DNA from: Streptomyces phaeolivaceus
GTDB taxonomy: Bacteria; Actinomycetota; Actinomycetes; Streptomycetales; Streptomycetaceae
Assembly (NCBI RefSeq): GCF_009184865.1
Contig: NZ_CP045096.1
Location: forward strand, 7,564,001-7,628,000
DNA length: 64,000 bases
Direction of reading: 5' to 3'
Shown: one piece after another, positions 35,033 through 51,112 of the stretch
How positions within the stretch are numbered: position 1 is the stretch's first letter
How the letters are laid out: each line of letters begins with the position of its first letter
Notes under the pieces: model-generated
What the model was told of the DNA's origin: nothing
Databases searched by the model: none
What the model saw: only the letters and a program-made list of their open reading frames with translations
Translations under genes and position numbers: made by a program

Positions 35033-37462
35033 ATGGGCATGACCCCCACACGCCGCACCGTCCTGCTCCTCGCCGCCACCCTGGCGGCCTCGCCCCCGCC
35101 CGGCCCCACCGCGCACGCCCCCGACGGGCCTGCGGGCGAGCCCTCCCACGGGCCGGCCGACGGGCCCTCCGACGACGAGTACGACACCCTCCGCCGCCGC
35201 TGGACGGCCCTCGCGCTCGGCACCGGCTACGACCCCGCCACCGAGCCCTACGCCACCCGGCTGCGCGAGACCGGCGACCTCGCCCACGCGTTCCGCGCGG
35301 CCATGGCGCCCACCACCCGCTCCCTCTGGCCGGGCCACCCCTTCGACCCGCCCGCCGGGATCACCAAGAGCTACAGCCGCCTGTGGACGATGGCCCAGGC
35401 GTACGCACAGCCGGGCACCGGCGCCACCGGCGACCCCGCCCTCCTCGCGGACGTGGTGCGCGGCCTCGACCACCTCACCGCGACCGTCTACAACCCCTCC
35501 ACCACCCGCTACGGCAACTGGTGGGAGTGGCAGATCGGCAGCCCCCGCCTCCTGCTGGACATCGTCACCGCCCTGCACGACGAACTGACGCCCGCGCGCC
35601 GCGCCGAGGCCTGCGCGGCGGTCGACCACTTCATCCCCGACGCCATGCTCCGCGACTACACCGGCACCTCAACCGGCGCCAACCGCGTCGACCTCTGCCG
35701 CTCCGTCGCCCTGCGCGGCATCCTCGGCCGCGCCCCCGACAAGATCGCCCTGGCCCGGGACGCCCTCTCACCCGTCTTCCCGTACGCCACCCGGGGCGAC
35801 GGCCTGTACGCCGACGGCTCCTTCGTGCAGCACACCTGGGTCGCCTACTCGGGGACGTACGGGCAGGTCCTGCTCGACGGCCTCGGGCGGCTCTTCGCGC
35901 TGCTGGCCGGGTCGACCTGGGAGGTGACCGACCCGAACCGGCGGATCGTCCTGGACTCCGTGGAACGGGCGTACGCGCCGCTCATCCTCGACGGGCTGGT
36001 GATGGACAGCGTCAACGGCCGCGCCATCAGCCGGGGTTACCTCAAGGGCGACGACCGGCACATCCTGCGCGGCGACCACTTCCACGGTCACGGGATCATC
36101 GCCGCGATCGCCCTGCTCGCGCTCGGCGCGGACGCCGCCGAGCGCGAGCGGTGGCACGGGCGGATCAAGGGCTGGATCGCACGCGACACCGTGACACCGA
36201 TCCTCACGGCACGACAGTTCGGCGTCGCCGACCTCGCCCGGCTGCACGCCGTCGCCGCGTCCCCGGTCGCCGCCGCGCCCGAACCCGTCGGCCACCGGCT
36301 CTTCCCGGCCATGGACCGGGCCGTCCACCGCCGCCCGGACTTCACCGTCAACATCGCCATGGCCTCCGACCGCATCGCCCACTACGAGTGCGGCAACGGC
36401 GAGAACCCGCGCGGCTGGCACACGGGCGCGGGCGCCACCCTCTGGTGGGCCGAGGGGCACGGCGGCCGGGCCGATCAGTACACCGACTGGTTCTGGCCCA
36501 CCGTCGACTGGTACCGCCTCCCCGGCACCACCGTCTCCACCAAACGGCTCGCGGACCGGGAGGGCGGCGAATGGGGTGCGCCGAAGCCCGCCGTCCGCTG
36601 GGTCGGCGGCACCACCGACGGCGAGTACGCGGCGATCGGCCAGCACCTCCAAGGGCTCGGCTCCACGCTCCGGGCCCACAAGTCCTGGTTCTGCGTCGCC
36701 GACGCCGTCATCTGCCTCGGGGCGGGCATCAGCTGCGCGGACGGCGTCCCGGTGGAGACGGTCGTCGACAACCGGAACCTGGGCGAGAGCGGCGGTACGG
36801 CGGCTCCCCGGCCCCTCGTACGCGGCCGGGGCTGGGCGCATCTGGAGGGCCACGGCGGCTGGGTCCTCCCGGGCGGCAGGTCCGCGGACGGCGCCCTGAG
36901 CACCCACCGCACCCACCACACCCTCCGCACCCTCCGCGAGGACCGCACCGGCGCCTGGTCCGACATCAACACCGCCGGCACGACCGAGCGCCGCACCCGG
37001 CGCTGGCAGACCCTCTGGCTGGATCACGGCACCGATCCGGTGAACGCCGACTACGCCTATCTGCTCATGCCCGGCGCCTCGCGCCACGCCGTGGAGGCCC
37101 GTGCCACCGACCGGCGCTGGTTGTCGATCCTCGCCAACGACAGCGCCCGCCAGGCAGTCCACGTCCCCTCGCTAGGGCTGATCGGCGCGAACTTCTGGCA
37201 GCCCGGTACGGTGGGCCCGCTGACGGCCTCCGCCGGGGCGAGCGTGCTGGTCCGCCGCCGGGGGAGGACCGCTACCCTCCACGTGAGCGAACCACCGCGC
37301 ACGGGCGAGCCGATGGAGATCATTTGGAATGGCCCGTTCCGCACGGTGATCCGGGCGGACGACCCGGTCGAGGTGCTGGAGTCGGCCCCCGGCCGCCTGC
37401 GCCTCCGCGTCACCCCCGGCACGGCCTGCGCCACGCACACCTGTGAGCTGACTCTCCCCTGA
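35033..37462 (+). CDS. secreted polysaccharide lyase family 8
   Basis: About 809-aa PL8 enzyme (hyaluronate/chondroitin/xanthan lyase group). Signal peptide with TRRTVLLLAATLAAS, then an alpha/alpha-toroid domain with the catalytic Asn region YGNWWEWQIG and catalytic His/Tyr region GSFVQHTWVAYSGTYG, followed by beta-sandwich domains (NGENPRGWHTGAGATLWW). ATG 35033 is chosen among three close in-frame starts (35021, 35033, 35039). A second overlapping frame over most of the gene is a GC artefact. It is a single gene; substrate is unproven. Confidence 0.9.
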   Translation: MGMTPTRRTVLLLAATLAASPPPGPTAHAPDGPAGEPSHGPADGPSDDEYDTLRRRWTALALGTGYDPATEPYATRLRETGDLAHAFRAAMAPTTRSLWPGHPFDPPAGITKSYSRLWTMAQAYAQPGTGATGDPALLADVVRGLDHLTATVYNPSTTRYGNWWEWQIGSPRLLLDIVTALHDELTPARRAEACAAVDHFIPDAMLRDYTGTSTGANRVDLCRSVALRGILGRAPDKIALARDALSPVFPYATRGDGLYADGSFVQHTWVAYSGTYGQVLLDGLGRLFALLAGSTWEVTDPNRRIVLDSVERAYAPLILDGLVMDSVNGRAISRGYLKGDDRHILRGDHFHGHGIIAAIALLALGADAAERERWHGRIKGWIARDTVTPILTARQFGVADLARLHAVAASPVAAAPEPVGHRLFPAMDRAVHRRPDFTVNIAMASDRIAHYECGNGENPRGWHTGAGATLWWAEGHGGRADQYTDWFWPTVDWYRLPGTTVSTKRLADREGGEWGAPKPAVRWVGGTTDGEYAAIGQHLQGLGSTLRAHKSWFCVADAVICLGAGISCADGVPVETVVDNRNLGESGGTAAPRPLVRGRGWAHLEGHGGWVLPGGRSADGALSTHRTHHTLRTLREDRTGAWSDINTAGTTERRTRRWQTLWLDHGTDPVNADYAYLLMPGASRHAVEARATDRRWLSILANDSARQAVHVPSLGLIGANFWQPGTVGPLTASAGASVLVRRRGRTATLHVSEPPRTGEPMEIIWNGPFRTVIRADDPVEVLESAPGRLRLRVTPGTACATHTCELTLP

Positions 37463-37627
37463 GGAACCCGACCCGGCTTTGTGTGACCCCTACAAGCCCC
37501 ACACCCCCTGAGCAGTCGGTTCGCCTGCATGCCGACCGGGTTCTGTTCAGGGGTACCAGGAAAACACGCCGGAGACTGTACGGAGTCGACGGACCGCTTT
37601 CCTCGCTCGGCTTCGTATGGTCGCTAC

Positions 37628-39211
37628 ATGACCGTTTTGGATGAGGCACCGGGTGAGCCGACGGACGCGCGCGGGCGGGTGGCCGAACTGCACGAGATTC
37701 GTGCCCAGGCGTTGGCCGGCCCCAGCGAGAAGGCGACCGAGGCGCAGCATGCCAAGGGCAAGCTGACCTCCCGGGAGCGCATCGAGCTGCTGCTGGACCC
37801 GGGCTCCTTCAACGAGGTCGAGCAGCTGCGCCGGCACCGGGCCTCCGGATTCGGTCTGGAGGCCAAGAAGCCGTACACCGACGGTGTCATCACCGGCTGG
37901 GGCACGGTGGAGGGCCGTACGGTCTTCGTCTACGCCCATGACTTCCGGATCTTCGGCGGCGCGCTGGGCGAGGCCCACGCCACCAAGATCCACAAGATCA
38001 TGGACATGGCCATCGCGGCCGGGGCCCCGCTGGTCTCGCTCAACGACGGCGCGGGCGCCCGTATCCAGGAGGGCGTCTCCGCACTCGCCGGGTACGGCGG
38101 CATCTTCCAGCGCAACACCAGGGCGTCGGGTGTCATCCCGCAGATCTCGGTCATGCTCGGCCCCTGCGCGGGCGGCGCGGCCTACAGCCCCGCCCTCACC
38201 GACTTCGTCTTCATGGTCCGCGAGACCTCGCAGATGTTCATCACCGGCCCGGACGTCGTCAAGGCGGTCACCGGCGAGGAGATCACCCAGAACGGCCTCG
38301 GCGGCGCGGACGTGCACGCCGAGACCTCCGGCGTCGCGCACTTCGCGTACGACGACGAGGAGACCTGCATCGCCGAGGTGCGCTACCTCCTGTCGATGCT
38401 CCCGCAGAACAACCGCGAGAACCCGCCCCGCGTGGAGCCCTCCGACGAGGCGGACCGCCGCGGCGACGTCCTCCTCGACCTGGTCCCCGCCGACGGCAAC
38501 CGGCCGTACGACATGACCAAGGTCATCGAGGAGATCGTCGACGACGGCGACTACCTGGAGGTCCACGAGCGCTGGGCCCGCAACATCATCTGCGCCCTCG
38601 GCCGGCTCGACGGCCAGGTCGTCGGCATCGTCGCCAACCAGCCGCAGTCCCTCGCGGGTGTCCTGGATATCGAGGCATCCGAAAAAGCTGCACGCTTTGT
38701 CCAGATGTGTGATGCTTTTAACATCCCGATCATCACGCTGCTGGATGTCCCCGGGTTCCTTCCGGGCGTCGATCAGGAGCACGGCGGAATCATCCGCCAC
38801 GGCGCGAAGCTGCTCTACGCCTACTGCAACGCGACCGTCCCCCGGATCTCCCTGATCCTGCGCAAGGCGTACGGAGGTGCCTACATCGTCATGGACAGCC
38901 AGTCCATCGGCGCCGACCTCACCTATGCGTGGCCGACCAACGAGATCGCCGTGATGGGCGCCGAGGGCGCCGCCAACGTCATCTTCCGTCGGCAGATCGC
39001 CGAGGCCGAGGACCCCGAGGCGATGCGGGTCCGGATGGTCAAGGAGTACAAGGCCGAGCTGATGCACCCGTACTACGCGGCCGAGCGCGGTCTCGTGGAC
39101 GACGTGATCGACCCCGCGGACACCCGCGCGGTCCTCATCCGCTCCCTGGCCATGCTCCACACCAAGCACGCGGACCTGCCGTCCCGCAAGCACGGCAACC
39201 CGCCGCAGTAA
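37628..39211 (+). CDS. accB: acyl-CoA carboxylase beta (carboxyltransferase) subunit
   Basis: 527-aa carboxyltransferase, making malonyl-CoA or methylmalonyl-CoA with a biotinylated alpha subunit encoded elsewhere. It has the N- and C-domain carboxyltransferase motifs: FGGALGEAHATKI, SLNDGAGARIQEGVSALAGY, LGPCAGGAAYSPALTDF, and LDVPGFLPGVDQEHGGIIRHG. It begins MTVLDEAPGEP as in S. coelicolor AccB (recalled). ATG 37628 lies 6 nt after TATGGT (37616-37621), so it may be leaderless. A local AT-rich codon patch occurs at about 38665-38740. It is followed by accE. Confidence 0.93.
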   Translation: MTVLDEAPGEPTDARGRVAELHEIRAQALAGPSEKATEAQHAKGKLTSRERIELLLDPGSFNEVEQLRRHRASGFGLEAKKPYTDGVITGWGTVEGRTVFVYAHDFRIFGGALGEAHATKIHKIMDMAIAAGAPLVSLNDGAGARIQEGVSALAGYGGIFQRNTRASGVIPQISVMLGPCAGGAAYSPALTDFVFMVRETSQMFITGPDVVKAVTGEEITQNGLGGADVHAETSGVAHFAYDDEETCIAEVRYLLSMLPQNNRENPPRVEPSDEADRRGDVLLDLVPADGNRPYDMTKVIEEIVDDGDYLEVHERWARNIICALGRLDGQVVGIVANQPQSLAGVLDIEASEKAARFVQMCDAFNIPIITLLDVPGFLPGVDQEHGGIIRHGAKLLYAYCNATVPRISLILRKAYGGAYIVMDSQSIGADLTYAWPTNEIAVMGAEGAANVIFRRQIAEAEDPEAMRVRMVKEYKAELMHPYYAAERGLVDDVIDPADTRAVLIRSLAMLHTKHADLPSRKHGNPPQ

Positions 39212-39268
39212 CCCGACGGTTCCTTCGCGGTCCCTCTGCGGAAACCTCTCTCACGGAGACTGACACCC

Positions 39269-39454
39269 ATGAAGCTGCCTGATATTCGCGTCGAGAAGGG
39301 TCACGCCGAGCCCGAGGAAGTGGCCGCGATCACCGCGCTGCTCCTCGCCCGCGCCGCCGCCCAGCCCGTCGAGACCCCGGCCGCTCGCCCCCGCGCGGGT
39401 TGGCGCCGACTGGAGCGCGAGCCGGGGTTCAGGGCGCCGCACAGCTGGCGCTGA
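39269..39454 (+). CDS. accE: acyl-CoA carboxylase epsilon subunit
   Basis: 61-aa small subunit that stabilises the actinobacterial acyl-CoA carboxylase. It opens MKLPDIRVEKGHAEPEEVAAI and ends in the typical WRRLEREPGFRAPHSWR. ACGGAG lies about 9 nt before the ATG. It is 57 bp after accB and co-transcribed, with terminators after it. Confidence 0.92.
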   Translation: MKLPDIRVEKGHAEPEEVAAITALLLARAAAQPVETPAARPRAGWRRLEREPGFRAPHSWR

Positions 39455-39467
39455 GCCTTGGTTCTTG

Positions 39468-39499
39468 AAGGGGCCCTCTCCGAATGGAGGGGGTCCTTT
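39468..39499 (+). terminator. terminator after accE
   Basis: AAGGGGCCCTCTCC (39468-39481) pairs with GGAGGGGGTCCTTT (39486-39499) with G-T pairs and loop GAAT, ending in TTT. Confidence 0.8.
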
Positions 39500-39530
39500 C
39501 CCGTGTGGGTCGACTGCGGGCCTGGAAAGC

Positions 39531-39609
39531 ATGGGGCGCAGCCCCTGCTATTCAGGGGCGCGGGGAACTGCGCGACCAGCCCCCACTCACCCGCACCCGA
39601 CACGCAACG
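39531..39609. repeat. palindromic repeat, copy 3 (half element)
   Basis: Carries GCGCGGGGAACTGCGCGA and the flanking CCAGCCCCCACTCACCCG, equal to the 3' arms of copies 1 and 2, but lacks the full 5' arm. It lies between converging accE and cvnD. Confidence 0.8.
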
Positions 39610-39648
39610 AAGGGGACCCCTCCCGGAAGAACAGGAAGGGGTCCCCTT
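39610..39648. terminator. terminator between accE and the second conservon
   Basis: AAGGGGACCCCT (39610-39621) and AGGGGTCCCCTT (39637-39648) form a perfect 12-bp stem. It can serve both the accE and cvnD ends. Confidence 0.85.
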
Positions 39649-39674
39649 TCGTCGTCGGCTGGGCGCCGCACGGC

Positions 39675-40256
39675 CTACCGCAGCCGAGCCATCAGCGCGT
39701 GCTCGACCAAGGTGATCAGCGCGCTCTTCGCGTCGGACCGATGCCGCGCGTCGGTCGTGATGATCGGGGTGTCGGGCCCGATCTGGAGCGCCTCCCGGAC
39801 CTCGTCCGGGTTGTACGGCTGTTGCCCGTCGAAGCCGTTCAACGCGATCACGAACGGCAGTCCGCTGTTCTCGAAGTAGTCGACGGCGGGGAAGCAGTCG
39901 GCGAGTCGGCGGGTGTCGACGAGGACGATCGCGCCGATCGCGCCGCGGACCAGGTCGTCCCACATGAACCAGAACCGGTCCTGACCGGGGGTGCCGAACA
40001 GGTACAGGATGAGGTCCTGGTCGAGGGTGATGCGGCCGAAGTCCATGGCGACCGTGGTGGTCGTCTTGTCCCCGGTGTGGGTGAGGTCGTCGATGCCCGC
40101 GGACGCGGACGTCATCACGGCCTCGGTACGCAGCGGGTTGATCTCCGAGACGGCCCCGACGAACGTGGTCTTGCCCACGCCGAAGCCGCCCGCCACCACG
40201 ATCTTCGCGGACGTGGTGGAGCGGGAAGGCCCTCCGCTAGAGCTTGCGAAGTCCAC
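39675..40256 (-). CDS. cvnD2: conservon GTPase (MglA-like)
   Basis: 193-aa small GTPase, last gene of the conservon. G1 is GGFGVGKTT, the G3 region is LFGTPGQDRFW and G4 is degenerate (NGFD in place of NKxD). CvnD proteins are thought to act with the roadblock protein CvnB and kinase CvnA as a membrane switch. GTG 40256 lies inside the end of cvnC, a 20-bp overlap, so translation is coupled. Residues about 24-132 are encoded by DNA identical to the other cvnD at 44964. The cvn1/cvn2 numbering follows S. coelicolor order from memory. Confidence 0.92.
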   Translation of the reverse strand: MDFASSSGGPSRSTTSAKIVVAGGFGVGKTTFVGAVSEINPLRTEAVMTSASAGIDDLTHTGDKTTTTVAMDFGRITLDQDLILYLFGTPGQDRFWFMWDDLVRGAIGAIVLVDTRRLADCFPAVDYFENSGLPFVIALNGFDGQQPYNPDEVREALQIGPDTPIITTDARHRSDAKSALITLVEHALMARLR

Positions 40257-40806
40257 TGAGCACCCTTTCGAGCAAAGTCACAGCTGGCTGGCCGCCGGCG
40301 CTCTCGTCGCCGCCGGGCTGATGAATGGCGACCAGGCCCGCCTCCGCCAAGTCGGCGACGAGGATCCTGGCCACGCCGAGAGGAATCGTCAGGAGGGCCG
40401 AGATTTCGGCCACCGACTTGATCTCCCGGCAGAGGTTGCAGATCCGCTGATGCTCGGGCAACTGGCCCTGCATCTGGTGCGGCTGCGCGGTGGTGTGCAC
40501 CAGCGCCTCGATGGCGAGCTGGTAACGCGGCCTGGTGCGACCGCCCGTCATGGCGTACGGGCGCACCAGGGGGTTGGTCGCCGCCCCTGCGGGCGACGGC
40601 TCGGGGGTGCGGCGTTGCGGCTGCACGGGCTGGATGCGCGGCGCCGGCGGCTGGTCGTACGGCGAGGGGCCGGGGCCCTGAGGTGCGTACGGCTGCTGGC
40701 GGCTCGGTGCGGAGGGGAAGTTGTACCGGTTCTGGTCACCCTGGCCCGGCCCCTGGCCGGGGTAGGACCAGTTGCCCGACGATGAACCGCCTGGGGGTGT
40801 TGCCAC
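40237..40806 (-). CDS. cvnC2: conservon DUF742 protein
   Basis: 189-aa DUF742 protein. The N-terminal half is Pro/Gln/Gly-rich and disordered; the DUF742 domain follows LVRPYAMTGGRTRPRYQLAIEAL and ends LLERVLSGLRKL, with CNLCREIKSVAEISALL as its winged-helix-like part. GTG 40806 has GGAGGAG about 7 nt upstream; ATG 40839 has none. It overlaps cvnD by 20 bp. Its exact role in the conservon is unknown; it interacts with the other subunits. Confidence 0.9.
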   Translation of the reverse strand: MATPPGGSSSGNWSYPGQGPGQGDQNRYNFPSAPSRQQPYAPQGPGPSPYDQPPAPRIQPVQPQRRTPEPSPAGAATNPLVRPYAMTGGRTRPRYQLAIEALVHTTAQPHQMQGQLPEHQRICNLCREIKSVAEISALLTIPLGVARILVADLAEAGLVAIHQPGGDESAGGQPAVTLLERVLSGLRKL

Positions 40807-40904
40807 GTTCTCTCCTCCTCCGACTGTGCTGGCATCCATGGCTCATTGGAAGCCGCGTCCCGAAACCTTACGGCCCCGGGACGCCAAAACGCACCGTCTG
40901 ACTG

Positions 40905-41327
40905 TTAGTTGAGCAGGCTGCCCTGGAGCTCCGCACGAAGATCGGGCGTCAGGACCGTACCGGCACGGTCCACCAGAAGTGCCATCTCGTACCCGATGAG
41001 ACCGATGTCGGCTTCCGGATGTGCGAGAACGGCGAGCGAGGAACCATCGGAAACGGACATGATGAAGAGGAATCCCCGCTCCATCTCCACAACCGTCTGA
41101 TTGACGCTGCCACCTTCGAAAATGCGGGAGGCACCCGCGGTCAGAGAGGTCAGACCCGACGCGACGGCCGCCAGCTGGTCGGCACGGTCGCGGGGAAACC
41201 CTTCGGACATCGCCAGAAGGAGTCCGTCGGCGGAGACCACCACCGTGTGCGACACCCCGGGGGTGTTGTCCACGAAATTGGTGATCAACCAGTTCAGGTT
41301 CTGTGCCGCCTGGCTCATCGGGCTCAC
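40905..41327 (-). CDS. cvnB2: conservon roadblock/LC7 protein
   Basis: 140-aa roadblock/LC7 domain protein: NLNWLITNFVDNTPGVSHTV, LLLAMSEGFPRDRADQLAAVASG, and LAVLAHPEADIGLIGYEMALL. Roadblock proteins act as GTPase-activating or scaffold partners of MglA-type GTPases, here CvnD. GTG 41327 lies one base after the cvnA stop with AGGAG 7 nt upstream, so it is translationally coupled to cvnA; ATG 41318 is an in-frame alternative. Confidence 0.92.
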   Translation of the reverse strand: MSPMSQAAQNLNWLITNFVDNTPGVSHTVVVSADGLLLAMSEGFPRDRADQLAAVASGLTSLTAGASRIFEGGSVNQTVVEMERGFLFIMSVSDGSSLAVLAHPEADIGLIGYEMALLVDRAGTVLTPDLRAELQGSLLN

Positions 41328-41328
41328 A

Positions 41329-44300
41329 CTAACGCTCCTGGTTGTAGGTGCTGTCAGGACCACTGTGTTGATTTCTAGTGGCCTGGCCGTTCGTTTCACT
41401 GCTTGCGTTGCGTCCCCGCTGGACCCCTCGGCGCAGGTTGCTCAGCCTGCCCCGGACGTCCTCGGGGGCGCGGGAGATCTGTGGACCTCCCTGCGGGGTC
41501 GTCGTGGCGGCACCCTCGACCAGGTTGGCCTTGGGAACCCGCCGCGGCAGGCCGGAGGAGGTGACCCCGCCCGCCTTGGGCTTCTTCAGCGCGGAGGCCT
41601 GCTGCCAGCGCTCGTCGTTGGCCGAGCGCCAGTCGCCGTTCGGTCCCCCGGCCGTCGGCTGGTCCTGGGCCACTTCCTGCCGTCCGTTCACGGCGCCCGC
41701 GCTCGTGCCGCCCGCGCTCGCGGTGGATCCGCGGCGGGGCAGGCCGGCGTCGGTCAGCGCGTGGCCGGCGGAGGGGGTGGGTCCCGGACGGTCGAAGCCT
41801 ACGCGTTCCGGCTCCTTCACGTCAGCGGCCTGCACAGATTCCGGTTCCGGAGCGTACTCGGAGCGGTAGGAGCTCTGGTAGTCCTGCTGTTGCGGCCAGT
41901 CGTCCTGATAGGACTGCTCGTCGTAGCCCGAGTAGGTCTCCGGCGCCGCGGGGGCGGCCGTCGCGTGCTCCTCCTGGACGGACTCCGCATAGGCGGGCTC
42001 GGGGTAACCGCCGGTAGCGGTGAACGTGTCGTTCCCGCCCGGCAGATGCCCGTTGCCGTTCGCCACGCCGTTGCCCTGGCCGAAGTACGCCTCGTCGTAC
42101 GACGGTTGCTGCGGCTCCTCGTACGCCGTCTGCTGGTCGAAGGACCGCTGCGGGTCCACGAAGGCCGTCGCGCCGTTGTCGTAGGACGGCTCGGGCGACT
42201 GGAAGTCGTCGCCGTAGCGCGGCGCCTGGCCGGCGGGCAACTGCGGGCTCTGGTGGGTCTGGGACTCCAGCGCCGCGCGGCGCTCCTCGCGCATCAGCGA
42301 ACGGCCCACGGGGTCCAGGTCGCGGATGTCGTCCGGCACCTCGTAGCGGCTGTCGTCGAAGCCCAGCTCCGCGGCGGTCCGCATCGGGGCCAGGCCCGGC
42401 TGCTGGAAGGCGTGCTGCTGCTCCGGGATGATCTGCGAGACCGTGAACTGGTCGGCCGCCGGCTGCTGCAGCTCGCCACCGCCACCATGGGTGATGACGT
42501 CGGGGAGCATGACCAGCGAGGTCGTACCGGCCTGCTCGCCCGAGGGGCGGAGCTGGACGCGGATGCCGTGCCGGTCGGACAGCCGGCCGACCACGAACAG
42601 ACCCATGCGCTGGGAGATCGCGGCGTCCACGGTCGGCGGGTTGGCCAGCTTGTGGTTGATGTCCGCGAAGTCCTCGGCGGTGAGGCCGATGCCCTTGTCG
42701 TGGATCTCGATCATCACGCGGCCGTCGGGGAGACGGGTCGCGGTGACGCGGACCTTGGTCTGTGGGGAGGAGAACGTGGTGGCGTTCTCCAGGAGCTCGG
42801 CGAGCAGGTGCACGAGGTCGGTCACGGCACGGCCGTGGATCTCGGCCTCCGGGACGCCGGACAGCTCGATGCGCTCGTACTGCTCCACCTCGGAGGAGGC
42901 GGCACGCAACACGTCGATCAGCGGGACCGGCTGGTCCCAGCGGCGGCCGGGCTCCTCGCCGGCGAGGACCAGGAGGTTCTCGCCGTTGCGGCGCATACGG
43001 GTCGCCAGGTGGTCCAGCTTGAAGAGGTTCTCCAGCTGGTCCGGGTCGGCCTCGTTGTTCTCCAGGTCGGTGATCAGGGTCAGCTGGCCCTCGATCAGCG
43101 ACTGGTTGCGGCGCGAGAGGTTGGTGAAGATCGCGTTGATGTTGCCCCGCAGCAGGGCCTGCTCGGCGGCGAGCCGGACGGCCTCGCGGTGGACCTGGTC
43201 GAAGGCGCGGGCGACTTCGCCGATCTCGTCGGTGGTGTTGATCGGGATCGGCGCCACCCGGGTGTCCACCCGGCCGGGGTCGGTGCGGGAGAGCTGGTCG
43301 ACCAGCATCGGCAGACGCTGCTCGGCGATGCCGAAGGCGGCGTTGCGCAGCTGGCGCATCGAGCGGCTCATCTGGCGGGCCATGATCCCCGCGATGATGA
43401 ACGCGGCGAGCAGTGCGACGATGACGATGGCGCCGTTGGTGTAGGCATCGCGCTGGGCGTCGGAGGCGATCTGGCCGGCTTCGTCCACCGCGCGGTTGAT
43501 CAGCTCGGTCTCGACCTCGCTGTACCCCTCGAACTTCAGGGTGGAGGCGGCCATCCAGTTCTGGTAGGTGACGCCCTGCGCCGCGAGCTGCTCGGGCGAG
43601 GCACCGCTGCCGATCAGCTGGATCATCTTCAGCATGGTGTCCGGCGGCGCCTTGTAGTCGGCGTTGCCGGCAGCGGCCTCGGCGGCCTGCTTCTTGCCCT
43701 CCTCGGTCTTCTGCGCCATGACCGACTCCAGACGCGCGGCGTCGGCCTCGGTGCCACCGGAGACGTACTCCTGTACGGCGATGTTCTCCAGGTAGGCGTA
43801 CGAGGTGAACGCGGTGACCTGCTGACGGAAGACCGTCTCGTCCTCACTGGGGCGGATCAGCAGGTGGGCACCGATCGAACGCTGCAGCGAGGCGGCGCCC
43901 TTCGCGAGCGTGACCGCGTAGACCGTACGGCCGTACGCGGTGATGTTGCCGGTACCGAGGCCGAGCTCGTTGGAGAACTCCGCCAGGAGGTGCTCGACGG
44001 TGACGTAGCCCTCTTCGGTCTGTACCGGGTCGGCGGCCCGGGTGAAGGCGATCTGCCGGAGCTTCTCCAGCGACGGCTCGGCCTCCTCCACCAGACGCAG
44101 ACGGCGCTCCAGGCCCTGCCCGGCGGGCATCCCGACGACCTCCGCGTGGAAGGCGTCCGCCTTCTCGTCGGTGAAGGCGCGGGCGTCCTTGACGACCTCA
44201 CTGTCGCGCTTGCCGTTGAGAAGGGGCTCGGCCGACAGGTCACGTTCATTGAGCAGTGCTTCGGCGTAGACGCCGGCGGCGGCCACGATCTTGGCCACCT

Positions 44301-44565
44301 TCTCGGCGTCCCGTGCCTCCTGCCAGGTGTCGATCGAGCCCTTCACCTGGAAGCCGCCCATGACGAGGCCGACCAGCACGGGTATGAGGAGAATCGCGTT
44401 CAGGCGAGTGGGTACACGCCAGTTGCGGGGGGAGAGACGACTGCCGCTCGCTGCGGGGGCTGCCGTCGGCTCCGGTCCGGCCACTTGTGCGGGTGCCGCT
44501 CCGCGCGGCGGCGGGGTGAAGTTGCCCCGCGCCGACGGCTCGGGACCTTTCTTGCTTCGCCTCAC
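41329..44565 (-). CDS. cvnA2: conservon sensor histidine kinase (nitrate/nitrite-sensor type)
   Basis: 1078-aa membrane kinase. TM1 (about 55-75), an extracytoplasmic NIT-type helical sensor domain (about 100-330), TM2 (about 377-397), a HAMP domain, a dimerisation helix with LDHLATRMRRNGENLLVLAGEE (about 515), and a HATPase domain with LAELLENATTFSSPQ, IEIHDKGIGL and GMGLFVVGRLSDRHG. A long Gln/Tyr/Pro-rich tail follows (about 700-1078). GTG 44565 follows AGAGGTTG, a sequence also present before the other cvnA. It heads the cvnA-B-C-D operon. Confidence 0.92.
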   Translation of the reverse strand: MRRSKKGPEPSARGNFTPPPRGAAPAQVAGPEPTAAPAASGSRLSPRNWRVPTRLNAILLIPVLVGLVMGGFQVKGSIDTWQEARDAEKVAKIVAAAGVYAEALLNERDLSAEPLLNGKRDSEVVKDARAFTDEKADAFHAEVVGMPAGQGLERRLRLVEEAEPSLEKLRQIAFTRAADPVQTEEGYVTVEHLLAEFSNELGLGTGNITAYGRTVYAVTLAKGAASLQRSIGAHLLIRPSEDETVFRQQVTAFTSYAYLENIAVQEYVSGGTEADAARLESVMAQKTEEGKKQAAEAAAGNADYKAPPDTMLKMIQLIGSGASPEQLAAQGVTYQNWMAASTLKFEGYSEVETELINRAVDEAGQIASDAQRDAYTNGAIVIVALLAAFIIAGIMARQMSRSMRQLRNAAFGIAEQRLPMLVDQLSRTDPGRVDTRVAPIPINTTDEIGEVARAFDQVHREAVRLAAEQALLRGNINAIFTNLSRRNQSLIEGQLTLITDLENNEADPDQLENLFKLDHLATRMRRNGENLLVLAGEEPGRRWDQPVPLIDVLRAASSEVEQYERIELSGVPEAEIHGRAVTDLVHLLAELLENATTFSSPQTKVRVTATRLPDGRVMIEIHDKGIGLTAEDFADINHKLANPPTVDAAISQRMGLFVVGRLSDRHGIRVQLRPSGEQAGTTSLVMLPDVITHGGGGELQQPAADQFTVSQIIPEQQHAFQQPGLAPMRTAAELGFDDSRYEVPDDIRDLDPVGRSLMREERRAALESQTHQSPQLPAGQAPRYGDDFQSPEPSYDNGATAFVDPQRSFDQQTAYEEPQQPSYDEAYFGQGNGVANGNGHLPGGNDTFTATGGYPEPAYAESVQEEHATAAPAAPETYSGYDEQSYQDDWPQQQDYQSSYRSEYAPEPESVQAADVKEPERVGFDRPGPTPSAGHALTDAGLPRRGSTASAGGTSAGAVNGRQEVAQDQPTAGGPNGDWRSANDERWQQASALKKPKAGGVTSSGLPRRVPKANLVEGAATTTPQGGPQISRAPEDVRGRLSNLRRGVQRGRNASSETNGQATRNQHSGPDSTYNQER

Positions 44566-44963
44566 TCGACCAACAACCTCTCGGCGCCGGCACCTACGTC
44601 GTGCCGCGGGTGACTCCACGCCCTAGTACGTCTTTGACTAATGGGCAGTTCAGGCATTCCAGCACGTCACGCTGAGGACTTCCAAACACTGGGAGGCAAC
44701 GATTCCGCGTGATGTAAGTCCCAGATAAAACGGTCATAAAGAGCGAGCCCCGGCAAAAAGCGGGGGCATGGTGAGCGCAGCGGCACCGATCGACCGCGAC
44801 GCGTGGTCGTACCACCCTATTTCTCTGTCGAAACGTTATGAACACCGAGGCCGACCGTGTCAAAGGACACAGCCGGCTCCGGTGTAACTACGACAACTGC
44901 CCTATGAGGTTGTGGACTTGGGTCCTGTTTTGGCCCCGGGTGTGGTGCTTCGGTCCCTCTGCC
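44566..44963. other. spacer between the two conservons
   Basis: About 400 bp with no supported gene. It must hold the cvnA2 promoter on the minus strand. A hairpin at 44747-44767 (GCCCCGGC-aaaaa-GCGGGGGC, one mismatch) is a likely terminator for the upstream cvn1 operon, read on the minus strand. Confidence 0.45.
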
Positions 44964-45539
44964 CTAGCGGAGCCGTGCCATGAGCGCGTGCTCGACCAGG
45001 GTGATCAGGGCCGACTTGGCGTCCGCGCGGTGGCGGGCGTCGGTCGTGATGATCGGGGTGTCGGGCCCGATCTGGAGCGCCTCGCGAACCTCGTCCGGCG
45101 TGTAGGGCTGGTGCCCCTCGAAGCCGTTGAGCGCGATGACGAAGGGGAGTCCGCTGTTCTCGAAGTAGTCGACGGCGGGGAAGCAGTCGGCGAGTCGGCG
45201 GGTGTCGACGAGGACGATCGCGCCGATCGCGCCGCGGACCAGGTCGTCCCACATGAACCAGAACCGGTCCTGACCGGGGGTGCCGAACAGGTACAGGATG
45301 AGGTCCTGGTCGAGGGTGATGCGGCCGAAGTCCATGGCGACCGTGGTGGTCGTCTTGTCCCCGGTGTGGGTGAGGTCGTCGATGCCCGCGGACGCGGACG
45401 TCATCACGGCCTCGGTACGCAGCGGGTTGATCTCCGAGACGGCCCCGACGAACGTGGTCTTGCCCACGCCGAAGCCACCCGCCACCACGATCTTCGCCGA
45501 GGTGGTGGCCCGCCCCGCTTCAGAGCTTCCGAAGTCCAC
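44964..45539 (-). CDS. cvnD1: conservon GTPase (MglA-like)
   Basis: 191-aa GTPase, nearly the same as cvnD2 in its core. G1 GGFGVGKTT, G3 LFGTPGQDRFW, and G4 NGFE, with Glu where the other copy has Asp. GTG 45539 overlaps cvnC by 20 bp. DNA 45148-45476 is identical to 39859-40187; the 3' third of the gene differs at about 15 percent of positions. Likely the switch protein of the first conservon. Confidence 0.92.
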   Translation of the reverse strand: MDFGSSEAGRATTSAKIVVAGGFGVGKTTFVGAVSEINPLRTEAVMTSASAGIDDLTHTGDKTTTTVAMDFGRITLDQDLILYLFGTPGQDRFWFMWDDLVRGAIGAIVLVDTRRLADCFPAVDYFENSGLPFVIALNGFEGHQPYTPDEVREALQIGPDTPIITTDARHRADAKSALITLVEHALMARLR

Positions 45540-45918
45540 TGAGCACCCTTTCCAGCAGAGTCACGTCCGGGGCGCCACCGGCGTTCTCGTCGCCACCGGG
45601 CTGGTGGATCGCGACGAGTCCGGCCTCGGCGAGGTCCGCGACAAGGATCCGTGCCACACCGAGCGGCATGGACAGCAGGGCCGACACCTCGGCCACCGAC
45701 TTCACCTCGCGGCACAGGTGGCAGATCCGCTGGTGCTCGGGGAGCAGACCCATCAGATGGGCGGGGTCTGCCGTCGTGCTGATCAGCGCCTCGAGGGCGA
45801 GCTGGTATCGCGGCCGCGTCCGGCCACCGGTCATGGCGTACGGCCGAACCAGAGGCTGGTCGCCCTCGTCTCCGTACGGCTCTGCGTACGGATCGTGAGG
45901 AGCGGTGGGCGGGGTCAT
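45520..45918 (-). CDS. cvnC1: conservon DUF742 protein
   Basis: 132-aa DUF742 protein, shorter than cvnC2 because the Pro/Gln-rich N-terminus is only about 25 residues. Domain marks: LVRPYAMTGGRTRPRYQLALE, CHLCREVKSVAEVSALL and LLERVLSGLRKL. ATG 45918 has GGAGG 4 nt upstream. It overlaps cvnD1. Confidence 0.92.
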   Translation of the reverse strand: MTPPTAPHDPYAEPYGDEGDQPLVRPYAMTGGRTRPRYQLALEALISTTADPAHLMGLLPEHQRICHLCREVKSVAEVSALLSMPLGVARILVADLAEAGLVAIHQPGGDENAGGAPDVTLLERVLSGLRKL

Positions 45919-46029
45919 TGATCCTCCGAGCGGGACAGCAAGTCGGTCAGTCGTGCCGTCTGACGGGGGCCGGTGGGGGGACTGTGTCGGCCGGACGGTG
46001 ATGTGGTGAGTTCTGTGGATCCGCAGGCG

Positions 46030-46452
46030 TCAGTGGAGCAGACTGCCTTGGAGTTCGGCGCGCAGGTCGGGCGTGAGCACGGCGCCCGCGCGGTCGACGA
46101 GCAGCGCCATCTCGTAACCGACCAGGCCGATGTCGCACTCGGGGTGGGCGAGGACGGCCAGGGACGATCCGTCGGAGACGGACATCAGGAAGAGAAAACC
46201 GCGCTCCATCTCGACCACGGTCTGGGCCACGTCCCCGCCCTCGAAGATCCGGGAGGCCCCGGCCGTGAGCGAGGTGAGCCCGGAGGCGACGGCCGCGAGT
46301 TGATCGGCACGGTCGCGCGGAAAGCCCTCCGACATCGCCAGGAGAAGGCCGTCGGCGGACACGACGACGGTGTGGGACACCCCGGGGGTGTTGTCCACGA
46401 AGTTGGTGATCAACCAGTTGAGGTTCTGTGCCGCCTGGCTCATCTGGCTCAA
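46030..46452 (-). CDS. cvnB1: conservon roadblock/LC7 protein
   Basis: 140-aa roadblock protein, very similar to cvnB2 but diverged at DNA level: NLNWLITNFVDNTPGVSHTV, MSEGFPRDRADQLAAVASG, LAVLAHPECDIGLVGYEMALL. TTG 46452 directly abuts the cvnA1 stop (TAGTTG) with AGGAG 7 nt upstream, parallel to cvnB2. A gap of 111 bp separates it from cvnC1. Confidence 0.92.
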   Translation of the reverse strand: MSQMSQAAQNLNWLITNFVDNTPGVSHTVVVSADGLLLAMSEGFPRDRADQLAAVASGLTSLTAGASRIFEGGDVAQTVVEMERGFLFLMSVSDGSSLAVLAHPECDIGLVGYEMALLVDRAGAVLTPDLRAELQGSLLH

Positions 46453-49400
46453 CTAACGCTCCTGCTGGTGAGTGGGGCTCGGGAAGCTGCCGGTCTGGCC
46501 GGTACCGGCCTGTCGACCCTGCGCGATGCCCCGACGGAGATTGGTCAGCCGGCCGCGTACGTCGTCAGGCGAACGCGAGACCTGCGGACCGGTTTGGTGC
46601 TGTTGCTGCTGAGCCGTGCCCGGCACGAGGTTGGCGCGCGGGACCCGGCGCGGCAGGCCGGAGGTGGTGACCCCGCCCGCCGAAGGCTGACGGGCTCGTT
46701 CGGCCTGGCGGACCAGGTCGTCGTTGGGTGTGCTGCGCCAGGTGGGGGAAGCGGGCGAGGCGGGGGTCGCCGGACGCTGTGGGGCGGCCGGAGTCTGGGG
46801 GGCGGGGGCGGCGGGCGCCTGCGGAGCGGAACCGTTGCCCTGCTGGTGGCCCGACTGCTGGCCGTTCTGACCGCCCTGACCGTGGAACCAGTTGGTCTCC
46901 AGCGTGTCGTACAGCGGGGTACGGCCGTCCATCGGACCCGTCGCCGGGGGCAGTGCCTCCGGCTCCTGCGGGCGCGCGGGGCGCTGCGGGGGCACCGGGG
47001 GACGCTGCGGCGGCACCGGCGGGCGGGGCGCGCCGTAGCTCGCCCCGTTCACCTGGGGCCGCTCGAACTGCCCGGTGTCCTGGCCGTTCTGCCGGCCGGG
47101 CGTACCGAACTGTCCCGTGTCCTGCGGGTTCTGCCGGCCCGGGACCCCGAACTGGCCGGTGTCCTGCGGGTTCTGCCGACCCTGCGCCGGGAACTGGCCC
47201 GTGCCGGAGCCGTCGTAGCCCGGCATGGCGAACTGGCCGGTGGACGACGGGTCGTGCGGGGCGCCCCGGGACGGACCGGTGGGCGCCGGCGGTGCGCCGG
47301 CCCCGCCGAACACATCGGGACGGACGAAGGATCCGGTGCCGTTCTGCGGCGCGGGCGTACCCGCGCCGGGACGCCGGCTGTCGAAGTCGGCACCCGGGGA
47401 ACGGGGGAAGTCGGTGGGCGGGGCCGGAGCGCGACCGGGGTCGACGCGCGGCATCGGCGCGGTGACGTCCGGCTGCTCCTCGTGGCCGCGCGGGGCGTCC
47501 AGCGAGGCGCGGGGCACCGGCGGCTGCGCGTTGTCGTCGCTCCAGCTGGGCGTCCGCGACGTGGAGTTGCCGCCGGGCAGCTCGGCGCGTGCGCCACCGC
47601 GGCCGGGCAGCTGCGGACGGCGCCTGCCGGAACGTTCCTTGCCCTGCTTGGGCGGCACGGCGCCGGGACCGTTGTCGGCCCCGCCCGGCCGGCCCGCACC
47701 CGCGTCACCCGGACCGCCGGCCGGGCGCAGGCCCGAACCGCCGGAGGGGAAGCCGCCCTGGCGCCCGGAGTCGTCGAAGCTCTCGAAGCCGCCCGGGACA
47801 CCGGTCCCGGCGGCCTGCAGACCCTGCGGGGCACCCGGCGCCTGACCGCCGCCGAACCCACCGGCACCGGCCGGCGGCCGACCGCCCTGCGGGGGAACCG
47901 GCGGACCGCCCTGCGGCCCACGCGGACCGCCGGGGTTGCCGAAACCGCCCGGACCGCTGGGGTTGCCGGGCAGCGCGGCCCGCGGACCCTGGCCCGCGCC
48001 GACCTGCCCACGCTGCGGAGGGGCACCGAGCAGACCGCCACCGGAGGACGGGCCGCCCAGCGGCGGACCCGACTGGTTGCCGGCCTGGCGACGCGCGGCG
48101 GCGGCACCGGCCGCGGCCTGTGCGGCGGCCGGACCACCGGTGGAGGGCACGCCCTGGCCGGGCTTGCCCGGGGTGGGCTTCTTGTTGCCCTGGGCCACGT
48201 CGACGGGAAGCATGACGAGCGCGGTCGTACCGCCCGAGTCGGACGGACGCAGCTGGATACGGATGCCGTGGCGCTGCGAGAGCCGGCCGACCACGAACAG
48301 ACCCATGCGGCGGGAGACCGAGACGTCCACGGTGGGCGGCGAGGCGAGCCGCTCGTTGATCGCGGCGAGGTCCTCCGGGGAGAGACCGATACCGGTGTCG
48401 TGGATCTCGATCAGCACCCGGCCGTCGGGCAGCGCGTGACCGGTGACCTTGACCTTGGTCTGCGGGGAGGAGAACGAGGTGGCGTTCTCCAGCAGCTCGG
48501 CGAGCAGGTGCACGAGGTCGTTGACCACCCGGCCGGCGACCTCGGTCGTCGGCACGGAGGACAGTTCGATGCGCTCGTACTGCTCCACCTCGGACGCGGC
48601 GGCGCGGAGGACGTCGACCAGCGGGACCGGACGGGTCCAGCGGCGGCCGGGCTCCTCACCGGCGAGGACGAGGAGGTTCTCACCGTTACGGCGCATGCGG
48701 GTGGCGAGGTGGTCGAGCTTGAAGAGGGAGGACAGCTGGTCCGGGTCGGCCTCGCGGGACTCCAGTTCGGAGATGAGCGACAGCTGACGCTGGATGAGGC
48801 CCTGGGAGCGGCGCGAGAGGTTGGTGAACATCGCGTTGACGTTGCCCCGCAGAAGGGCCTGCTCGGCGGCGAGGCGGACGGCCTCGCGGTGCACGTCGTC
48901 GAAGGCCGCGGCCACCTGGCCGATCTCGTCCCGGGAGTGCACACCGACCGACTCGACGGAGGTGTCGACGTCCTGCGGGTCCGACTCCGACAGCTGCTTG
49001 ACCAGCTCGGGCAGCCGGTCCTGGGCGACCTTGGTCGCCGTGTCCTGGAGGCGGCGCAGCGAGCGGATCATGGACCGGGCCACGACGAACGCGCCGACCA
49101 GGGAGACACCGAGGACGAGCAGGATCAGCGCACCGGAGATGATCGCCTCTTGCTCCGCGTCGGCGCGGAGGTTGCGGGCGGTCTGTTCCATCTCCTCGAG
49201 GAGCGAGCCCTCGATCTTCTTCATCTGCTCGATCTTGGCCGCGGAGTCGTCGGTCCAGTCCTTGTACGAGCGCTTGTCCTGGCCGCCCAGACCGCCCGCG
49301 CTGGCGAGGACCCGGTCCGCGTAGACGTCGGAGGCCTCGATGGTGGGGCTCGCGTCGTCGATCGGCCGGGTCAGTTCCTCGGCACCGGCACCGTAGATGT

Positions 49401-50328
49401 CGGAGAAGGTGCTGCGGTCGGACTCCTCGTTGGCGAGCGCCGCGTTGGCGTACAGCCGGTCGTTCTCGGAGAGGTCGCCGGCCTTGTCCTTGGTCTCGGG
49501 CAGGGCCGCCGCGATGACCGCGCGCTGCACGGAGGCGTACTCCTTGGCGGAGGAGAACGCCGCCAGGGCACGGGTCCGCTTGATCATGTCCGGGTTGCTG
49601 GTGGCCTCGGCCATGTCCGTGGACAGTTCCAGCAGCTGGTCGATCAGCCGGTGGTAGGCCTCGACCGTCTGCGTGGAGTTCTCACTGTCCACATACGCGT
49701 TCTTGCGGATGCTGCTGAGGTTGTACAGCTCGCGGACGACCCGGACGAGGCTGTCGCGGACACCGGGCATCTTCGTGGTGGTGTTCGCGGTCTCGGCGGC
49801 CTGGGTCGCGTCCGTGAACTGGACGCGGGCCTGGTCCGTCTTCTCGCGGGCGCCCTTGACCGTGTAGTCGGTGGCGTCCAGACCGTGCGCGAGGGGACCG
49901 GCCGACAGGTCGCGCTCCTGCTGGAGCGCGGTGGCCAGTTCGGTCGCCTGCTTGGTCATGTCGGTGAGCAGCCGCATGTTGTCGAGCTGCTGGATGTCGT
50001 CCACGTTGTCGCCGATGCGCAGGGCACCGAGCGAGGTCGCCGCCACCACGGGGAGCGCGAGCAGCGAGACCAGACGAGTCGAAATGCGCCAGTTGCGCAG
50101 GGCTATTCGGGAGCCGCCGCTTCCGCCGCCGGCATGGGGGCCGCCCTTGGGCTTCCCGGGTGCCGCGGGAGCAACTGACGTGCCGGGGCGCCCGGAGCGC
50201 TCCCCGCCGTCGCCGATCTCCGCCGGACCCGGGTTCTGGGCGTGCTGGGGGGAGGAACCGTTACCGGTTCCGTTGTGTGGCTCCGGCTCCGCCGAAGCGC
50301 TGCCATCCCTCTTGAAACGTCCCTGCAC
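46453..50328 (-). CDS. cvnA1: conservon sensor histidine kinase (nitrate/nitrite-sensor type)
   Basis: 1291-aa membrane kinase. An N-terminal Pro/Gly/Ser-rich segment, TM1 (about 87-105), NIT-type sensor domain (about 115-350), TM2 (about 393-416), HAMP, dimerisation helix FKLDHLATRMRRNGENLL (about 536), and HATPase with LAELLENATSFSSPQ, IEIHDTGIGL and RRMGLFVVGRLSQRHG. A tail of about 560 residues is Pro/Gly/Gln-rich and includes three tandem copies of TGQFGVPGRQNPQD-type units. GTG 50328 gives MQGRFKRDGSASAEP and follows AGAGGTTG as in cvnA2. The tail may tether partner proteins. Confidence 0.92.
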   Translation of the reverse strand: MQGRFKRDGSASAEPEPHNGTGNGSSPQHAQNPGPAEIGDGGERSGRPGTSVAPAAPGKPKGGPHAGGGSGGSRIALRNWRISTRLVSLLALPVVAATSLGALRIGDNVDDIQQLDNMRLLTDMTKQATELATALQQERDLSAGPLAHGLDATDYTVKGAREKTDQARVQFTDATQAAETANTTTKMPGVRDSLVRVVRELYNLSSIRKNAYVDSENSTQTVEAYHRLIDQLLELSTDMAEATSNPDMIKRTRALAAFSSAKEYASVQRAVIAAALPETKDKAGDLSENDRLYANAALANEESDRSTFSDIYGAGAEELTRPIDDASPTIEASDVYADRVLASAGGLGGQDKRSYKDWTDDSAAKIEQMKKIEGSLLEEMEQTARNLRADAEQEAIISGALILLVLGVSLVGAFVVARSMIRSLRRLQDTATKVAQDRLPELVKQLSESDPQDVDTSVESVGVHSRDEIGQVAAAFDDVHREAVRLAAEQALLRGNVNAMFTNLSRRSQGLIQRQLSLISELESREADPDQLSSLFKLDHLATRMRRNGENLLVLAGEEPGRRWTRPVPLVDVLRAAASEVEQYERIELSSVPTTEVAGRVVNDLVHLLAELLENATSFSSPQTKVKVTGHALPDGRVLIEIHDTGIGLSPEDLAAINERLASPPTVDVSVSRRMGLFVVGRLSQRHGIRIQLRPSDSGGTTALVMLPVDVAQGNKKPTPGKPGQGVPSTGGPAAAQAAAGAAAARRQAGNQSGPPLGGPSSGGGLLGAPPQRGQVGAGQGPRAALPGNPSGPGGFGNPGGPRGPQGGPPVPPQGGRPPAGAGGFGGGQAPGAPQGLQAAGTGVPGGFESFDDSGRQGGFPSGGSGLRPAGGPGDAGAGRPGGADNGPGAVPPKQGKERSGRRRPQLPGRGGARAELPGGNSTSRTPSWSDDNAQPPVPRASLDAPRGHEEQPDVTAPMPRVDPGRAPAPPTDFPRSPGADFDSRRPGAGTPAPQNGTGSFVRPDVFGGAGAPPAPTGPSRGAPHDPSSTGQFAMPGYDGSGTGQFPAQGRQNPQDTGQFGVPGRQNPQDTGQFGTPGRQNGQDTGQFERPQVNGASYGAPRPPVPPQRPPVPPQRPARPQEPEALPPATGPMDGRTPLYDTLETNWFHGQGGQNGQQSGHQQGNGSAPQAPAAPAPQTPAAPQRPATPASPASPTWRSTPNDDLVRQAERARQPSAGGVTTSGLPRRVPRANLVPGTAQQQQHQTGPQVSRSPDDVRGRLTNLRRGIAQGRQAGTGQTGSFPSPTHQQER

Positions 50329-50932
50329 TAGCGTCGCAACCTCTGGACCAGGCGCCCCACCGCGTGAACGGCGGGACGGTGTCGGCGTCTTCGGGGACGC
50401 CCTGAATACGTCCCCAATTGGTGGTCGTGAGTGACCGGCGCTGGCTCCCCTCCACCGCCGCCAGGCGCTGTTGTTCTGCGCCCCTGCGCGCCGGCACGGT
50501 CCTGCGGCGGTCCGTGGAATTCCAGCACAGTGCCGGATCTCCAACAAGGCCAATGGGTAACGGTCTGTTCACTGTGACAGCATGTGAGGACTACGTCACC
50601 AGGCGTGGAAGGTGTTTCCCCCCTATTGCGGACATACCCGTGCGATACAGGGGGGTGAAGTGGGTGTCCCAGTCGCCATGATCAGGAGCGGAATGAGGGC
50701 TTCAGGTATCTGATGTCCGTTTCGTGGGGGCGCGTTGGCGGCCTGGATTGCCCGTTTTACCCATGGCTGAGTGAGCAAACTCACACGCCGATCGTGTCTT
50801 CTTCACGTCTTGACCCGGGAATCGGATGTTTAGCCTGACGCTTTACAGGGATGGCGAATCCGACAACCCGCGCTTGTGGGACGGCCCTTGCGGCCCGCCC
50901 GGCGCCCGCACATGACGAGGTCCAGGACAACA
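50329..50932. other. 600-bp gene-poor region between conservon and small protein
   Basis: It contains the cvnA1 promoter region (minus strand), a hairpin GTGAG-caaa-CTCAC (50771-50784), and a candidate plus-strand promoter TTGACC (50810-50815) with TAGCCT (50831-50836), 15-nt spacer, before the small gene at 50933. No gene is supported inside. Confidence 0.45.
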
Positions 50933-51112
50933 GTGAAGACGACGACGATGTTCCGCACGATAGCCAACCCCCGGCGTACGACGCTGGCCCACCTCGCCGA
51001 CGCCGAGGACCTGCGCACACCGGAACTGGAGCACTCCGTCGACCTCCCCTCCGTGACCGCCAACCCCCGTCGGACGGTCCTGATGACGGTCCCGGTCCAG
51101 ACGGCGGAGTAG
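50933..51112 (+). CDS. small repeat-containing protein of 59 aa, unknown function
   Basis: It opens MKTTTMFRTIANPRRTTLAHL and contains ANPRRTTL and later ANPRRTVL, an internal repeat about 34 residues apart, separated by an acidic stretch rich in Glu and Asp; it ends VPVQTAE. No cysteines or membrane segment. GTG 50933 is preceded by AGGA; ATG 50948, five codons on, is an alternative. Family not recognised. It sits between the cvn1 operon and the FAH gene and has typical codon bias. Confidence 0.7.
   Translation: MKTTTMFRTIANPRRTTLAHLADAEDLRTPELEHSVDLPSVTANPRRTVLMTVPVQTAE

Follow-up and report, generated by a model that had tools for sequence, protein, structure and literature searches.

Gene conversion between bacterial paralogues is already known, and Wang and Chen 2018 (PMC6053082) reported 26 prokaryotic genes under recurrent concerted evolution (e.g. 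tuf, amoABC, psbA and fla), 22 of which encode proteins of stable complexes. Like cvnD, the conservon GTPase gene considered here, these genes have copies that are closer within a species than to their orthologues, in at least five species and through recurrent gene conversion. No conservon gene, however, is listed in Tables 1 and 2 of that paper, and conservons differ from its cases in that homogenisation affects mainly two of a unit's four genes, which are separated by one that is mostly left unconverted; the conservon pair is a clear new case. Neighbouring duplicated conservons of unequal gene content have likewise been described (PMC4316618), although there, unlike here, one mglA-type GTPase was lost and gene loss was invoked; the main text of that study has no occurrence of either ‘gene conversion’ or ‘concerted’. 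In S. coelicolor, cvn1 and cvn2 (cvnA1 = SCO5544, cvnA2 = SCO5540; table in PMC9739842) are A-B-C-D units whose gene order agrees with that of the tandem pair studied here, and the cvn1/cvn2 passages of PMC9739842 deal with how these units are regulated rather than with recombination between them. Among conservon proteins, CvnD shows the highest conservation, with CvnB second, and cross talk has been speculated upon (PMC8510531). A membrane heterocomplex of conservon proteins is known for Cvn9. In the open-access literature we found no publication that joins conservons or cvnD with gene conversion, concerted evolution or unequal crossing.

The window (the whole stretch of 64,000 nucleotides of Streptomyces phaeolivaceus DNA that was analysed) carries two tandem conservons on its minus strand, recognised from open reading frames and Pfam matches, with the distal cvnA-cvnB-cvnC-cvnD unit followed by the proximal one in the same order (Table 1). 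Both units encode, in order, a sensor kinase, a roadblock/LC7 protein, a DUF742 protein and a small GTPase by Pfam; the GTPase genes match PF03029, while NCBIfam small_GTP stayed under its cut-off, and zero NCBIfam families scored above cut-off among the six proteins submitted. Going by gene order alone, we equate the distal and proximal units tentatively with cvn1 and cvn2 of S. coelicolor, respectively; the proximal cvnD would then encode CvnD2 and the distal one CvnD1. The start of the proximal cvnB is a conserved Met chosen within ORF 40905-41399, and the true start of the distal cvnA probably lies inside its ORF. Fourteen cvnD-like matches were found in this genome (10.18 Mb, 2 contigs), the next one after the tandem pair having 67% protein identity. 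An Rfam scan of positions 36000-52000 at gathering thresholds gave no match, so there is no sign of a known RNA element behind any synonymous conservation.

Table 1. Features of the two tandem conservons in the window and of the tract shared by their cvnD genes.
Feature	Coordinates	Strand	Evidence and remarks
Acyl-CoA carboxyltransferase-type gene, flanks proximal unit	37529-39211	+	PF01039, 7.4e-206; landmark
cvnD, proximal conservon	39675-40256	-	Pfam PF03029, 7.3e-35; 193 aa
Converted tract, proximal (carboxyltransferase side) cvnD	39859-40208	-	gene nt 49-398
cvnC (DUF742), proximal unit	40237-40839	-	PF05331; not converted
cvnB (roadblock/LC7), proximal unit	40905-41318	-	PF03259; not converted in this strain
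cvnA sensor kinase, proximal unit	41329-44619	-	NIT, HATPase_c, weak HAMP; start uncertain
cvnD, distal conservon	44964-45539	-	Pfam PF03029, 7.6e-34; NGFE replaces NGFD
Converted tract, distal cvnD	45148-45497	-	pairs with 39859-40208
cvnC (DUF742), distal unit	45520-45918	-	PF05331
cvnB (roadblock/LC7), distal unit	46030-46452	-	PF03259
cvnA sensor kinase, distal unit	46453-50553	-	NIT, HAMP, HATPase_c; coordinates = ORF limit

The two cvnD genes share a sharply bounded tract that spans the P-loop to just before the NGFD motif and in which 349/350 bases are the same. It consists of a perfect run of 329 bases (39859-40187 = 45148-45476), a sole mismatch (40188 / 45477) and 20 further identical bases, just as the initial annotation had described it. 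In a codon-anchored comparison, 1/350 sites differ at nt 49-398, as opposed to 10/42 at nt 1-48 and 28/181 at nt 399-579; the divergence outside the tract (38/223 sites, about 17%) is of the same order as the ~15% given in that annotation, if somewhat higher. The two CvnD proteins accordingly differ outside the tract only (among the first 13 residues and at positions 143, 145, 149 and 174), and the longest run of matching variable sites was 67 (p = 5e-5, the floor of 20000 shuffles in a permutation test). Differences between the copies amounted to 71/333 sites in cvnC, 81/411 in cvnB and 746/1947 in the compared part of cvnA. That the cvnB genes differ far more than the rest of cvnD, as had been claimed, is overstated, since raw divergence is only slightly higher (19.7% vs. 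17% in the cvnD flanks), though cvnB identity at third positions is just 0.482. At the NGFE/NGFD position, which we take to be a G4-like motif, NGFE was found in 25/157 distal cvnD copies, including that of the window, and in 1/157 proximal copies; a functional difference between the two GTPases is possible.

To compare the locus across genomes, regions were obtained for 133 of the 199 genomes listed: 100 were picked from the listed matches, which biases them toward relatives with higher cvnD similarity, and the others came from 26 finished genomes and 7 low-similarity genomes; 78 named loci were added besides. From the 212 pooled loci, we removed 19 without an accepted tandem pair (the rule being one strand and 4.3-7.5 kb spacing; the dropped loci lay at contig ends, had broken genes, belonged to other genera or were more widely spaced) and 5 duplicates, leaving 188 unique pairs. 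From the fetched genomes we hand-picked, by contig count, a set of 74 in 1-3 contigs, each of them selected because it carried a pair. The window's proximal cvnD (and its B, C and A genes) served as the codon reference, and insertions were dropped. Run counts used every ordered cross-genome pair of the 74, and the estimate of erased divergence used every pair with the gene present; the cross-genome yardsticks elsewhere (percentiles, permutation controls, codon identity and matched windows) are random samples. No N occurs in the cvnD genes of the 74 genomes; locus L246 has an N run elsewhere. Another of the 74, L107 (G011:C1:971400-984200), keeps a distal cvnD (6061-6612) of only 71% protein identity; upstream of it in the locus none of the other distal genes (cvnC, cvnB, cvnA) was matched, so that its distal unit is decayed or partly lost.

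Long identical stretches of cvnD were concentrated in copies sharing a genome. Runs of at least 300 bases joined a genome's own copies in 20/74 genomes vs. 0/5402 cross-genome pairs (20/73 and 0/5256 without L107), runs of at least 150 bases in 35/74 vs. 14/5402, and across all unique tandem pairs the longest identical run reached at least 300 bases in 39/188. Many tracts start and stop within the gene, and some runs cover nearly all of it. If there were no conversion, own-copy and cross-genome comparisons should agree, and for cvnC and cvnA they nearly do: median third-position identity was 0.871 between own copies of the cvnD core vs. 0.767 between proximal and distal copies of different genomes (157 pairs), and the corresponding values were 0.657/0.620 for cvnB, 0.640/0.634 for cvnC and 0.700/0.691 for the kinase part of cvnA. 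Own copies exceeded the 99th percentile of sampled cross-genome third-position identity in 76/157 genomes for the cvnD core and 37/153 for cvnB (2/154 for cvnC and 2/149 for the cvnA kinase part), and surpassed all sampled orthologues on both sides in 49/157, 11/153, 1/154 and 0/149 for the cvnD core, cvnB, cvnC and cvnA, respectively. The run permutation test was significant after correction in 28/74 genomes for cvnD, 5/70 for cvnB, 3/73 for cvnC and 2/71 for cvnA, with 4/219, 2/207, 1/216 and 1/209 in the respective cross-species controls; an earlier set gave 61/157, 7/153, 8/154 and 2/149, with 2/156 cross-species comparisons significant. The test is strong for cvnD. On its own it does not tell cvnB and cvnC apart; conversion of cvnB is supported instead by its tree, by the percentile count and by cvnB pairs outside the genus that are nearly identical.

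The gene trees (FastTree) tell the same genes apart. Copy labels changed once in the tree of the cvnA kinase part and twice in that of cvnC. The number of changes rose to 17 in the cvnB tree, 31 in that of the cvnD tail and 47 in that of the cvnD core, the last being close to what shuffled labels gave (means 46 to 50; 50.3 for the cvnD core). The two copies of one genome were sisters in 34/74 genomes for the cvnD core, 17/74 for the cvnD tail and 9/70 for cvnB, and in none for cvnC (0/73) or cvnA (0/71). Ten of the 34 core sister pairs had support of at least 0.9 (identical tips have no support value), and the window's own core copies were sisters with support of 0.998. Separate trees, a check proposed at the outset, thus unite the window's copies in the core, while the cvnA (71 genomes) and cvnC (73) trees never unite one genome's copies. 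As the cvnA and cvnC trees split by copy and the cvnD tree is scrambled, the two units arose before the sampled species separated, and homogenisation of cvnD came later; in the cvnD core, paralogues within a genome are closer than orthologues by both measures (34/74 sister pairs and 49/157 genomes).

We consider it very probable that these patterns reflect recurrent homologous recombination between the cvnD genes of the tandem conservons and, separately, between their cvnB genes, conversion within each genome causing the copies to evolve in concert. The conservon would have been duplicated before the sampled Streptomyces species diverged, and the directly repeated cvnD genes would since have recombined repeatedly, with the cvnB genes doing so on their own. 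Gene conversion, the non-crossover outcome, would have carried tracts of ~100 to 580 bases from one copy to the other, presumably through RecA-type ectopic repair templated by the second unit, either on the same chromosome or on a further copy of it. Conversions in cvnD and cvnB would survive owing to the ~95% identity that the proteins already have there, and those in cvnC and cvnA would be removed, or would rarely start, since the proteins have diverged.

Conversion has continued since this strain parted from its nearest sampled relative. Locus L045, the nearest sampled relative by cvnA identity, has cvnD copies identical over nt 49-428, and eight sites in nt 246-396 differ between it and the window, all at third positions and with both copies agreeing in each species; such copy-shared differences require conversion later than the split of the two lineages. 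Orthologues differ at 8-9 sites, so that ~8.5 differences would be expected between copies if conversion had ended at the split, whereas 1 was seen in the window and 0 in L045 over nt 49-398 (Poisson, 0.002 and 0.0002). The tract of the window shows 8 and 20 differences from the proximal copies of L145 and L148 vs. 21 and 31 from their distal copies, which suggests that the donor in this strain was mainly the proximal copy. The donor signal is ambiguous in several relatives, L067 is closer in the distal copy, and across the genus the scrambled copy labels obscure the direction. The single recent event envisaged in the initial annotation is instead one among many across the family, and its restriction to the P-loop and switch regions does not hold, since tract ends vary, some runs span nearly the whole gene and cvnB converts elsewhere.

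Why cvnD and cvnB should be singled out can be read in more than one way. Between copies taken from different genomes, protein identity reaches 0.953 in cvnD and 0.949 in cvnB, compared with 0.850 in cvnC and 0.744 in the kinase part of cvnA, and this similarity is part of why the former two convert. Selection could also have fixed conversions that keep the GTPase/roadblock pair interchangeable, so that two receptors act on one switch. As this would predict, cvnD and cvnB convert and the intervening cvnC and cvnA hardly do, even when 30-codon windows of equal cross-genome nucleotide identity are compared: at 0.80-0.88 the excess synonymous identity was +0.13 to +0.18 in cvnD and +0.11 to +0.12 in cvnB vs. 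+0.04 in cvnC and about +0.015 in cvnA, and at 0.88-0.93 it was +0.158 in cvnD, +0.049 in cvnB and +0.022 in cvnA. Own-copy identity of the cvnD core also tracks that of cvnB (Spearman 0.34) and not that of cvnC (0.03). Each class, however, offers just 1 to 7 matched windows, the A and C windows sit in diverged DNA, which is itself a recombination barrier, and own-copy identity of the cvnD tail correlates weakly with cvnC (0.26). Moreover, conversion erased 0.58 of synonymous vs. 0.27 of amino-acid divergence in the cvnD core (difference 0.32, bootstrap 0.16-0.45) and 0.23 vs. 0.17 in cvnB, the reverse of what selection for protein identity predicts; the base level of about 0.05 erased in the cvnA kinase part and cvnC is some other effect, such as composition. 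Because more synonymous than amino-acid divergence was erased, tolerated near-silent recombination fits better than selection for identical proteins, and we regard such selection as improbable. A broader form of the idea, in which the two conservons are one device with distinct receptors (cvnA and cvnC) and a pooled, interchangeable switch (cvnD and cvnB) at which selection favours conversion, the sensory parts being kept different, seems to us unlikely as well. The sparing of cvnC and cvnA fits either a purging of conversions that alter functionally different proteins or infrequent recombination of short, similar patches lying in diverged surroundings.

Purifying or codon-level selection on the G-domain core could in principle keep two copies alike without recombination, and the core is indeed better conserved than the tail between species (same-amino-acid codon identity of proximal orthologues, 0.767 vs. 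0.679). Constraint contributes, but it does not suffice. Codons for the same amino acid in the core were identical in a proportion of 0.982 between the window's own copies, against a median of 0.786 and a maximum of 0.929 with the proximal copies of other sampled genomes, and 0.758 and 0.920 with their distal copies; the comparison of synonymous identity across species, which had been named as a way to overturn conversion, therefore came out in its favour. The kinase part of cvnA, with orthologue codon identity of 0.81-0.84, nevertheless shows an own-copy excess of just 0.005-0.03. Purifying selection as the sole cause was rejected on the own-copy codon excess and on the eight third-position sites at which window and L045 differ in both copies alike, and we hold it to be very improbable. 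The original proposal of gene conversion rather than simple purifying selection is borne out by this excess over cross-genome codons, together with the sisterhood of the core copies.

An assembly artefact, i.e. a collapsed or mis-copied repeat in this genome, would likewise yield two near-identical tracts, and draft assemblies do break at cvnD: in G123 and G140, the matches have 99-111 query bases in common, as k-mer-overlap joins would produce, and such joins may be the cause. In the window, however, the copies differ at one base in the tract and at 38/223 sites outside it, the genome is in 2 contigs, and the same pattern recurs in L045 and in 20/74 genomes of 1-3 contigs, whose cvnD genes are without N. 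A collapsed repeat, raised early on as a possible refutation, is therefore unlikely as a general cause, and we rejected it for this genome (the copies are distinct and the pattern recurs in near-finished genomes), its probability being very slight. Recent independent duplication of cvnD in each lineage, which near whole-gene identity in some genomes might suggest, is scarcely credible, since cvnC adjoins both copies in 185/188 pairs and cvnA in 178/188, on one strand and 4.3-7.5 kb apart (as the acceptance rule requires), many tracts are bounded inside the gene, and whole-gene replacement in place is itself conversion.

Several assemblies show irregularities at the locus. In the drafts G123:C24, G140:C26, G183:C40, G117:C511, L182 and L132, the assembly breaks or repeats 99-111 query bases in cvnD, or contigs stop within the gene or close to it; such breaks are expected where two copies have long identical tracts. 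L081 (G193:C12) has an extra cvnD match ~12 kb off on the opposite strand, reflecting a rearrangement or an assembly error, and in L068 and L206 one cvnD copy was matched as two separate pieces (an assembly artefact or a pseudogene).

With recurrent recombination between the units as the preferred reading, a bacterial signalling operon joins the few genes for which long-lasting concerted evolution is known, and it brings a natural internal control, in that adjacent genes of one duplicated unit include some that convert and some that hardly do. Whether similarity or selection limits ectopic recombination becomes testable in place. Trees and orthology labels for cvnD1 and cvnD2 are unreliable, as are short-read assemblies of these genes, and single mutants of cvn1 or cvn2 may mask shared functions.

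Some loci resemble the products of crossing-over. L266 (G273:C1:4999200-5019100) has three tandem conservons, the middle one chimeric: it differs from the proximal unit by one mismatch in 4198 bases from cvnA through cvnB, and matches the distal unit at 99.6% over 1594 bases from just before cvnB through cvnD. Its cvnB is of the proximal type at nt 15 and of the distal type at nt 243, placing the breakpoint in between, and judged from its sequence the structure is what unequal crossing-over within cvnB would yield. In L276 (G288) and L277 (G303) one unit is present; its cvnA and cvnC are of the distal type, and downstream of its cvnD lies the proximal flank, which is 87-92% identical to that of relatives, the match in L276 beginning ~100 bases past cvnD. 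These two match what a crossover in cvnD would leave, although an ordinary deletion ending at cvnD could account for them. They are not the reciprocal of L266, and the two may have a common ancestry.

Outside the genus, cvnD runs of more than 320 bases were found in 7/20 loci from other genera of the family (327 to 579 bases in L268, L269, L270, L271, L274, L275 and the triple L266). Third-position identity of cvnB was 0.96 to 1.0 in six of the seven and 0.80 in L274, that of cvnC was 0.63-0.74 (1.0 in the L266 pair having the duplicated segment), and that of cvnA was 0.60-0.66 where measured (L269 left out). The L266 run is partly due to the recent extra unit, yet its proximal and distal cvnD genes still share a 401-base run. 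Members of genus g7 had short cvnD runs (50-130 bases), yet cvnB identity of 0.93-0.985 in 5/8. One genome, sampled twice (L197 and L257), had a high cvnC identity of 0.929, which implies that cvnC is not wholly exempt from conversion. Three further cvnD genes of the S. phaeolivaceus genome that lie within 12 kb of one another (L005, L011 and L012) gave runs of just 17-21 bases, and conversion is thus not general to clustered conservons here. Identical runs in the cvnD genes of L215 and L222 measured 32-38 bases. A longer one, of 117 bases, links two cvnD genes of L218 (Sphaerisporangium perillae) separated by 8.6 kb and hints that conversion also occurs beyond the family.
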